The notes under the pieces were generated by a model. That model was not told the DNA's origin. It worked only from the letters and a program-made list of their open reading frames with translations, and did not search any database. Positions 38,480 through 57,040 of a DNA stretch of 64,000 nucleotides are shown one piece after another (position 1 is the first letter of the stretch; every line of letters starts with the position of its first letter). Origin of the DNA: Pandoraea pneumonica. GTDB lineage: Bacteria > Pseudomonadota > Gammaproteobacteria > Burkholderiales > Burkholderiaceae. The position numbers and the translations under genes are program-made. The DNA lies in NCBI RefSeq assembly GCF_902459645.1, contig NZ_CABPSK010000002.1, forward strand, positions 1,240,001-1,304,000, in the 5' to 3' direction.

Positions 38480-38888
<409 letters not shown>

Positions 38889-38903
38889 ATCGATACAAAA
38901 GCG

Positions 38904-39733: not shown

Positions 39734-39762
39734 TTGCAACGCACCATCGTCTTTGCTAGACT
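39734..39762 (+). promoter_or_regulatory. Sigma70-type promoter of the predicted small RNA
   Basis: TTGCAA (39734-39739), a 17-bp spacer, TAGACT (39757-39762). This is the best-spaced -35/-10 pair in the region and predicts a start near 39769. Confidence 0.6.
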
Positions 39763-39768
39763 TCAGTC

Positions 39769-39867
39769 ATTGGTTGTTGTGCTTCACAGCAATTCTGCAA
39801 GTGTCTCCTCCACCCTCCTCCTTTGGTGGATTTAACCCGGACCCAATGAGGTTCGGGTTTTTTTTTG
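39769..39867 (+). ncRNA. Predicted ~100-nt small RNA with an anti-Shine-Dalgarno hairpin loop
   Basis: Three stem-loops follow the predicted start. The first is TTGTTGTG/CACAGCAA with a CTT loop (39774-39792). The second is TCCACC/GGTGGA (39809-39814 and 39825-39830), whose 10-nt loop CTCCTCCTTT contains CCTCCTTT, the same as the 3' end of 16S rRNA. The third is an intrinsic terminator (39834-39859) with a run of T. Such a loop could pair with Shine-Dalgarno sequences of mRNAs. I recall an Rfam family of betaproteobacterial toxic small RNAs with an anti-SD, and this may belong to it; that is not verified. It lies just upstream of the rplM-rpsI ribosomal protein genes. Confidence 0.65.
39834..39867 (+). 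terminator. Strong intrinsic terminator of the predicted small RNA
   Basis: AACCCGGACC (39834-39843) pairs with GGTTCGGGTT (39850-39859, one G-U), followed by at least seven further T. Confidence 0.93.
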
Positions 39868-39879
39868 TGCGCCCGAAAA

Positions 39880-39910
39880 GTCCGGTTTACCTAAGTGCGT
39901 TTACCGGACG
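39880..39910. promoter_or_regulatory. Inverted repeat overlapping the rplM -35
   Basis: GTCCGGT (39880-39886) and ACCGGAC (39904-39910) are perfect 7-bp arms. The right arm covers the putative -35 (39902-39907) of rplM, so a bound protein would block the promoter. Confidence 0.35.
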
Positions 39911-39930
39911 GGTGTTTTTTCTGTATAATC
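39902..39930 (+). promoter_or_regulatory. rplM promoter
   Basis: A perfect -10 TATAAT at 39925-39930 with a weak -35 (TTACCG, 39902-39907) 17 bp upstream. It predicts a leader of about 140 nt before rplM, long enough for ribosomal-protein feedback control. Confidence 0.6.
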
Positions 39931-40077
39931 AACGGCTTTTCCGGAAATGCCCACGGAAAAAGCATCAGGGAGAGCCTGCAAGCACAGGACTGCGCCATGC
40001 AACTCGCAAGGACGCGGCCGGCAGACAAGCAGGAAGTTGGTGTCTATGGGGCAAGAAGTTTTTTAATTGGATCGATC

Positions 40078-40506
40078 ATGAAGACGTTTTCCGCTAAGCC
40101 GGCAGAGGTGACGCGCGAATGGTTTGTGATTGACGCGACGGACAAAGTCCTCGGCCGTGTCGCCAGCGAAGTGGCACGCCGTCTGCGCGGCAAGCACAAA
40201 CCGGAATTCACGCCGCACGTTGACACGGGTGATTACATCATCATCGTCAATGCTGCCAAGCTGAAGGTCACGGGCGCAAAGCAAACCGATAAGAAGTACT
40301 ACCGTCACACGGGTTACCCGGGCGGTATCTACGAAACCACGTTTGGCAAGATGCAAGAGCGTTTCCCGGGCCGTGCGCTCGAGAAAGCCGTGAAGGGCAT
40401 GCTGCCGAAGGGTCCGCTGGGCTACGCGATGATCAAGAAGCTGAAGGTTTACGCCGACGGCAACCATCCGCACGAAGCTCAGCAACCGAAGTCGCTCGAG
40501 ATCTAA
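40078..40506 (+). CDS. rplM: 50S ribosomal protein L13
   Basis: A 142-residue L13. It starts [53 protein letters not shown] and HPHEAQQP are characteristic. L13 is an early assembly protein of the large subunit. It is followed after 10 bp by rpsI, the standard L13-S9 operon. Confidence 0.98.
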
Positions 40507-55204: not shown

Positions 55205-57040
55205 ATGACGTCTGAGCAAACCAAGCCCCTGCACCCGACCCTGATGGCCGTCACCGCGCGCATTGCCGCGCGTAGCCGCGATTCGCGCTCGGCCTACCTT
55301 GCGCGTATCGAGGCCAGCCGAGGCAGCTTCCCGCAACGCGGCGCGCTCTCGTGCGCCAACCTTGCCCACGGCTTTGCCGCCATGCCCGCCAACGACAAGC
55401 TGATGCTGCGCGAGCAGCGTCGCCCGAACGTGGGCATCGTCACGGCGTACAACGACATGCTCTCGGCGCACCAGCCGTACGAGCAATACCCGGCCCGCCT
55501 GCGCGACGCCGCCCGCAAGTTGGGCGCGACGGCGCAAGTCGCCGGTGGCGTGCCCGCCATGTGCGATGGCGTGACGCAGGGCAACGCCGGTATGGAGTTG
55601 TCGCTGTTCTCGCGCGAAATCATCGCGATGAGCACCGCCGTGGCGCTCTCGCACAACATGTTCGATGCAGCGCTCATGCTCGGTGTGTGCGACAAGATCG
55701 TGCCGGGTCTAGTGATCGGTGCGCTGCAATTCGGTCATCTGCCGACGATCTTTGTGCCCGCCGGTCCGATGGCGAGCGGCCTGTCGAACGACGAGAAGGC
55801 CCGTATCCGCCAGTTGTACGCCACCGGCAAAGTCGGTCGCGACGCGCTGCTCGAAGCCGAGTCGCAGGCGTATCACGGCGCGGGCACTTGCACGTTCTAC
55901 GGCACGGCCAACAGCAATCAGTTGCTCATGGAAGTGATGGGACTGCATTTGCCCGGCGCCGCTTTCGTACACCCGCATATGCCGCTTCGCGACGCGCTCA
56001 CCGAAGCGGCCCTCGCGCGCGTGCTGGCCATCGGTGCCGATACCGCTGAGTACACGCCCATCGGCCACGTGGTCGACGAGCGCGCGGTCGTCAACGGCAT
56101 CGTCGGGTTGCTCGCCACGGGCGGCTCGACCAATCACACGCTGCACTTGGTGGCGATGGCGCGCGCGGCAGGCGTGGTGATCGACTGGGACGATTTCGAT
56201 GCGCTTTCGGCCGTCGTGCCGCTGCTCGCGCGCGTGTATCCGAACGGCAAGGCCGACGTGAATCATTTCCACGCGGCGGGCGGCATGGGCTTCCTGATCG
56301 GCGAATTGCTCGACGCGGGGCTGCTGCACGAAGACGTACAAACCGTGGCCGGTCCGGGCTTGTCGCGCTATCGCCAAGAGCCGTGGCTCTCGGAGCAGGG
56401 GCTGGCATGGCGCGACGGTAGCGCCTACAGTGGTGATCGTGACGTATTGCGCGGCCATGCCGAGCCGTTCGCCCCCGATGGCGGACTGCGCCTCATGCAT
56501 GGCAATCTGGGTCGCGGTGTCATCAAGGTGTCGGCGGTCAAGCCGGAACATCGGCGTGTGGCCGCGACGGCTCGCGTATTTACTTCGCAGGAAGCGGTCA
56601 AGGCCGCGTTTGACGCTGGCGAGTTGCATCGCGACGTGGTGGTGGTGCTGCGCGGTCAGGGCCCGCGCGCGAACGGCATGCCCGAGTTGCATCGCTTGAC
56701 GCCGCTGCTGGGCGCGTTGCAGGACGAAGGCTTTGCCGTGGCGCTGGTGACCGACGGCCGCATGTCGGGCGCGTCAGGCAAGGTACCGGCGGTGATTCAC
56801 GTCTCGCCGGAGGCTGCCGGCGGCGGTCCGCTCGCCCGCGTGTGCGACGGCGATCTGATCGTGCTCGACGCCGCGTCTGGCATGTTGCACGCCGAAGTGA
56901 GCCCCGATGTGTGGGCCGCGCGCGAGATTGCGCCGGTGCCAGCGTCGGGCGACGACACCGGCCGCCTGCTGTTCGGCCACATGCGCGCCGCTGTCGGCGC
57001 TGCGGAAGCGGGCGCTTCCGTGTTCTTCGGATCTGTTTGA
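55205..57040 (+). CDS. edd: Phosphogluconate dehydratase
   Basis: A 611-residue IlvD/Edd-family [4Fe-4S] dehydratase that turns 6-phosphogluconate into 2-keto-3-deoxy-6-phosphogluconate. [40 protein letters not shown] and [20 protein letters not shown] carry the cluster cysteines; [20 protein letters not shown] is the C-terminal signature. The ATG at 55205 ([11 protein letters not shown]) is preferred. It is the first gene of edd-eda-gntP-gntK. Confidence 0.95.

Follow-up and report, generated by a model that had tools for sequence, protein, structure and literature searches.

The small RNAs closest to the one described here are NcS27, of the double-hairpin type, from Burkholderia cenocepacia and S17 from Bordetella pertussis, and control of selected uptake and catabolic mRNAs is the role reported for both. 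NcS27 is a 92-nt RNA, its 3' end confirmed by RACE, which is processed to a shorter form and adjoins BCAL3349 in opposite orientation; three B. cenocepacia homologues rise 4.3- to 8.0-fold in glucose medium and 2.9- to 9.7-fold in biofilm, and share a common upstream motif (Fig. S3 of that paper), and the authors state that the regulator of accumulation of their sRNAs is unknown (PMC5688073). Homologues have been tied to metabolic shutdown. S17 is processed by RNase E to a form of 67 nt, and its -35 is reported as TTGCAT with a 17-bp spacer (PMC11722255). Expression, processing, growth effects and some target repression have thus been shown by others in relatives. For carbon storage as PHB, the reference regulator is PhbF (PhaR) of Herbaspirillum, whose motif TG[N]TGC[N]3GCAA is reported to rest on a footprint at the phbF promoter; PhbF represses phbF and phaP1 fusions in Escherichia coli and binds granules. 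The PhaR core of S. meliloti is YGCRNYGCR, and PhaR represses there the sRNA MmgR (PMC12542648, PMC8401924).

The window, that is, the whole stretch of 64,000 nucleotides analysed, contains upstream of rplM a match to the Betaproteobacteria toxic sRNA family (RF02278) at 39802-39866 (+), which covers the full model (1-64) and scores 69.3 bits against a cut-off of 50 bits (E = 6.7e-12 over the whole window). The original prediction had pointed to an Rfam family of betaproteobacterial toxic sRNAs for this region, and the covariance model identified it as RF02278. The host is betaproteobacterial and resembles Pandoraea, its rplM being 100% identical to that of Pandoraea aquatica. Scores for the NmsR (RF02877; 37.7 bits, gathering score 52) and MmgR (RF00519; 17.0 bits, gathering score 41) models were both under the gathering cut-offs, and membership of either family was rejected. 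The RNA at 39802-39866 adds a member to this known family and probably corresponds, as orthologue, to NcS27 of B. cenocepacia; what is new is its proposed link to the PHB repressor. The segment 39734-39867 looks like a complete small-RNA gene with promoter, 5' hairpin, anti-Shine-Dalgarno (anti-SD) hairpin and terminator, and its parts and neighbours are as follows:

39734..39746, +, putative PhaR/PhbF operator TTGCAACGCACCA, overlapping the -35 hexamer TTGCAA (39734-39739); motif fit and conservation in relatives
39757..39762, +, -10 hexamer TAGACT; sequence, with a 17-bp spacer from TTGCAA; TATAAT in many relatives (by eye)
39769..39866, +, predicted primary transcript of ~98 nt; fold, with the start placed by distance from the -10
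39772..39794, +, 5' hairpin that processing probably removes; fold, and processing reported for NcS27 and S17
39802..39866, +, RF02278 core, the predicted mature double-hairpin RNA; covariance match and fold
39802..39812, +, 5' seed UGUCUCCUCCA, anti-SD and most conserved, unpaired first and then running into the stem; aligned copies
39809..39830, +, anti-SD hairpin with arms UCCACC/GGUGGA and the 10-nt loop CUCCUCCUUU at 39815-39824; fold and pair counts
39834..39866, +, intrinsic terminator with U run (hairpin 39834-39859); fold, and compensatory changes in relatives
39900..39929, +, promoter-like TTTACC-18-TATAAT, possibly serving rplM-rpsI; near chance, one found in the region and 0.6 expected in shuffles
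40078..40506, +, rplM (L13), a neighbour and not a predicted target; TIGR01066, PF00572
40517..40912, +, rpsI (S9), a neighbour and not a predicted target; open reading frame, named by eye and from the original prediction

The promoter TTGCAA-17-TAGACT had been proposed from the outset. The pair was absent from the promoter list of a consensus scan of the region, and it is backed by conservation, since TTGC(G/A)... and TATAAT-like hexamers are seen by eye at the same place in relatives. Folding also recovered the three predicted structures, namely the 5' hairpin, the TCCACC/GGTGGA hairpin with its 10-nt loop and the terminator. This fold has a minimum free energy of -32.9 kcal/mol (z = -3.1; one of 200 shuffles equally good), and the core 39802-39866 folded alone reaches z = -3.5, a value equalled by none of 200 shuffles. 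In 40 aligned copies, standard pairs occupy 89.6% of the named pair cells against 76.4% after shuffling, and double-change cells number 53 against a shuffled mean of 14.9. Stems with compensatory changes are thus conserved. These changes lie mostly in the terminator stem; in the anti-SD stem a single pair is compensated, C-G being replaced by U-A in 11 copies. RNAalifold, run unaided on the aligned copies, predicted the terminator stem only and not the anti-SD stem, and two of the five covariation measures, how many pairs vary and how many pair types occur, gave no higher values in the 40 copies than in shuffles.

Four RF02278 matches were found in this genome, scoring 69.3 (the window copy), 67.3, 53.8 and 46.1 bits, the last under the cut-off, and the three other copies sit away from rplM. 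Matches occur in 107 of 120 genomes of the bacterial family (over the cut-off in 104); among the 11 genomes of the genus, the single one lacking a match has a size of 1.2 Mb. Among the best 80 named rplM loci, 32 show a same-strand match upstream of the gene, and in this set of 80 L084, L099, L117 and L138 have less than ~270 bp of upstream sequence; beyond these 32, the core was seen in L118 and L132 by pattern only. With 32 of 80 loci carrying the copy, the place before rplM is old, though not universal. The site of NcS27 beside BCAL3349 is presumably the osmC-rplM gap, and the rplM-linked copies of the Burkholderia loci L070 and L073 fit this.

Other elements were observed around the gene. 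The start of rplM (40078) lies 212 nt past the end of the RF02278 core, and the TTTACC-18-TATAAT site sits between the sRNA terminator and rplM; a leader running from that site to the ATG (39930-40077) would be ~140 nt long, and no Rfam family reached its gathering score in it. RNase P RNA (RF00010, 292 bits) is located upstream of the sRNA at 38482-38890, as it is in 12 of 15 relatives' loci with an RF02278 match from one batch of rplM loci. In genome G023, which has no RF02278 match, an operator, a TATAAT-like hexamer and a GTCTCCTCCA match occur ~1.1 kb upstream of rplM (contig C12, L063), and this element on the rplM contig is perhaps a diverged sRNA copy. A match to Rfam Sphinx_1 at 56019-56117 (34.3 bits, cut-off 34, E = 0.024) is probably due to chance.

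The original prediction centred on a loop displaying CCTCCTTT, presumably the 3' end of 16S rRNA, and expected relatives to keep both the place beside rplM and this loop. The RNA is indeed of the anti-SD type, and the place is kept to the extent given above; the loop, however, is not the best conserved anti-SD segment, as it retains CCTCC in 26 of the 32 rplM-linked copies (three Polynucleobacter loci have CCAAACATA instead), against 32 of 32 with CTCCTCC at the unpaired 5' end. This weakened the loop as the key conserved element and singled out the 5' seed UGUCUCCUCCA as the best-kept target-reading part. Targets were sought genome-wide with one 11-nt seed complement only (TGGAGGAGACA), which yielded six matches (one in the control). 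Three of them are sRNA genes themselves, and the other three are perfect over 11 nt and end 0-4 nt before an ATG, in front of genes for an ABC permease (PF00528), an MFS transporter (PF07690; best NCBIfam model HpaX, under its cut-off) and a Phenol_MetA_deg protein (PF13557). Although few and found with a single seed, these candidate targets would fit the effects on uptake and catabolism reported for NcS27 and S17.

The element overlapping the -35 resembles an operator of the PHB regulator. TTGCNNNGCANCA is the reverse complement of the PhbF motif (TGNTGCNNNGCAA), and TTGCAACGCACCA agrees with it at 9 of the 9 positions specified, which places a PhaR/PhbF operator motif in the promoter. It contains the S. 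meliloti PhaR core and extends past the -35 hexamer. The strict core was found within 250 nt upstream in 26 of the 32 rplM-linked copies, whereas 200 shuffled sets averaged 0.2 and never exceeded 2. Its spacing is also kept: among the 30 family loci with the highest scores (L005-L034, several from one genus), 25 have it beginning 34-35 nt ahead of the RNA core, and the remaining five deviate from the operator by one or two bases. An earlier pass with looser criteria had located a site no more than 130 nt away in 44 of 63 copies found by pattern; this set is redundant, and some of its sites lie elsewhere. Within this genome, the strongest paralogue carries the operator inverted (TGGTGCATCGCAA), and at the two weaker copies (L003, L004) it was not found. 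Among the three rplM loci titled Burkholderia, the operator is lost in L070 and L073 and kept in L072; NcS27 itself may therefore not be PhaR-controlled. A second PhaR-like core, CGCGATGCA or CGCAATGCA, was seen by eye ~17 bp upstream of the operator in L072, L075 and L076, and its counterpart in the window looks degenerate (TTTCGCACTATAAAT).

The operator 13-mer is not specific, since it occurs 62 times in the genome and its reversed pattern 17 times, and 27 of 44 examined sites fell inside predicted genes (the first 30 listed of the 62 plus 14 picked for RNY fit, with genes called by a home-made codon score), making it by itself a poor finder of regulon members. Sites outside predicted genes include L145 (G000:C1:126187), L148 (C1:566590), L185 (C3:91539) and L168 (C2:20024), whose neighbours are, respectively, kup, an enoyl-CoA hydratase/benzoate-regulator pair, ugpB and a weakly acetyltransferase-like gene; these are possible further PhaR targets. 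At phasin genes, the core occurred within 300 nt upstream in all 29 loci with a located start (30 were examined and L208 was dropped), with 75 core sites against 7 in reversed sequence and often two per promoter. The phasin promoter of the window has the core and no perfect 13-mer, and no perfect 13-mer was present within ~580 bp upstream of the open reading frame taken by eye for phaC.

This genome encodes PhaR (TIGR01848, 162.7 bits; PF07879 and PF05233), and PF07879 is present in 103 of the 120 family genomes. The genomes were searched for the pattern TTGCNNNGCA-gap-GTCTCCTCCA, the strict form of which also requires the RNY core; its matches were not all paired individually with RF02278 hits. 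With a gap of 20-50 the operator preceded GTCTCCTCCA in 65 of 120 genomes (0 for the reversed-pattern control) and with a gap of 51-81 in 45 (control 1). The strict pattern was present in 87 of 103 genomes with PhaR against 1 of 17 without it, the exception being G053, which is 83% complete; these counts were compiled by hand from search tables, and the genomes are not independent. Omitting the RNY filter changed the figures to 89 of 103 and 3 of 17, and the two additional PhaR-lacking genomes, G036 and G086, carry their pattern matches and their RF02278 hits on different contigs. When the count was confined to genomes that bear the sRNA and are at least 90% complete, the strict pattern occurred in 86 of 99 with PhaR against 0 of 4 without (Fisher 5e-4, kinship ignored), leaving 13 of the 99 without it.

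Comparisons within genera were also made. Genus g21 offers the best contrast: each of the PhaR-bearing genomes G021, G056, G066 and G076 has the operator at one copy, whereas PhaR-lacking G041 (99% complete) has none at its copies; G086, where PhaR was not found and which is 85% complete, was unreadable for this purpose and left out of the contrast. The operator was not found at the sRNA copies of PhaR-lacking G001 and G036 either, and PhaR-lacking G060 has a weak sRNA match only (35 bits). Genus g3 gave no strict match in seven of nine genomes, which belong to the 13 exceptions just counted, and in genus g15 the parsed copies were without operator with or without PhaR, two of its genomes having PhaR. 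The joint absence of PhaR and sRNA in 11 genomes is partly genome reduction.

The explanation we favour, with a probability of roughly 0.7, is that the locus encodes a trans-acting RF02278 sRNA of the NcS27/double-hairpin/S17 type that is repressed by PhaR, released by PHB and lowers translation of uptake and catabolic genes. The 5' end UGUCUCCUCCA and the loop CUCCUCCUUU would pair with the Shine-Dalgarno regions of selected mRNAs and block initiation, the targets being mostly mRNAs for taking up and breaking down carbon and nitrogen sources. PhaR (PhbF), a repressor that binds PHB, would hold the promoter down through the operator covering the -35. Under carbon excess, accumulating PHB granules would sequester PhaR, the sRNA promoter would open and the sRNA would rise, so that a full carbon store would reduce further carbon intake, a negative feedback from storage to intake. 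For this organism we infer PhaR binding, the response to PHB and target repression. The rise of the B. cenocepacia homologues in glucose and biofilm is compatible with this model and no proof of it, because L070 and L073 have lost the operator (L072 keeps it).

It is unlikely, yet worth weighing, that the same sRNA acts on the same targets and that its -35 element is read by some other transcription factor or reflects mere promoter preference. Such a reading would accommodate the 13 largely complete genomes that have PhaR and the sRNA but not the strict element, and genus g15, where the element is missing though PhaR is present. It accounts less readily for an element that fits a footprinted PhbF motif at every specified position, reaches past the -35 hexamer, is inverted in one paralogue and shares its core with phasin promoters, and that was not found at the sRNAs of four complete PhaR-lacking genomes keeping an sRNA.

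The original prediction had suggested that the RNA tunes translation globally or matches L13/S9 output to ribosome numbers, given its place before rplM-rpsI. Its anti-SD sequence and the retention of that place in 32 of 80 loci speak for a ribosomal role, but when duplex energies with the first 27 nt of the core were ranked for the 57 gene starts called in the window, rplM came 46th and rpsI 40th, and feedback on these genes was rejected on this basis. With three other copies of this genome located elsewhere, a promoter-like site, albeit weak, belonging to rplM-rpsI itself and uptake and catabolic genes as the reported targets of homologues, we regard tuning of ribosomal protein or global translation output as highly improbable; control of a chosen set of mRNAs for uptake and catabolism, as reported for NcS27 and S17, is more likely than a global effect. 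There is similarly little to recommend a toxic or growth-arrest RNA that sequesters Shine-Dalgarno sequences unselectively: the family owes its name to cloned copies that inhibited growth of E. coli, and overexpression of ncS27 slows B. cenocepacia (PMC5688073), but NcS27 overexpression is reported to alter growth on some substrates and to leave it unaffected on others.

We consider it probable that in Burkholderiales RF02278 represents the RNA arm of the PHB regulon, in which PhaR, leaving the promoter as PHB granules form, would derepress a family of anti-SD sRNAs that shut down carbon uptake and catabolism. The proposed link of the sRNA to the PHB repressor PhaR is the new and testable part, and a PhaR operator would make the storage of carbon as PHB the specific signal. 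The link would also matter for the biotechnological use of PHB-producing Burkholderiales, in which these RNAs may restrict the uptake of substrate when granules have filled. No link between RF02278 and PhaR or PHB was found among the literature matches listed, nor in the searchable text of PMC5688073, PMC11722255, PMC6337395, PMC7011215, PMC4603805, PMC8401924 and PMC5760752; Fig. S3 of PMC5688073 may show the same motif, unassigned to PhaR.

Compared with the known systems, the RNA is most like the NcS27/double-hairpin RNAs of B. cenocepacia, with which it shares two core hairpins, a longer 5' part, CU-rich anti-SD parts, a size of ~92-98 nt, several copies per genome and a full-model covariance match; it differs in host genus and in having the operator that Burkholderia L070 and L073 lost. 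S17/S17S of Bordetella pertussis similarly uses its 5' seed (Site 1) and loop as target sites, and differs in its 190-nt precursor and higher level in Bvg+ mode (PMC11722255). The NmsR (RcoF) sRNAs of Neisseria resemble it in CU-rich anti-SD stretches and control of metabolism, but they are arranged in tandem in the genome (PMC5688073) and their model scores the window RNA below its gathering score. MmgR of S. meliloti is, like the RNA proposed here, a small RNA repressed by PhaR (AniA) and tied to PHB, and it is Hfq-dependent (PMC12542648, PMC8401924); unlike it, MmgR is alphaproteobacterial, is also controlled by NtrC and acts on phasins, and homology is not supported by the covariance score. 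Since PhaR represses MmgR in S. meliloti, alphaproteobacteria and betaproteobacteria would share a feedback from storage through PhaR to an sRNA, whether through common descent or through convergence.
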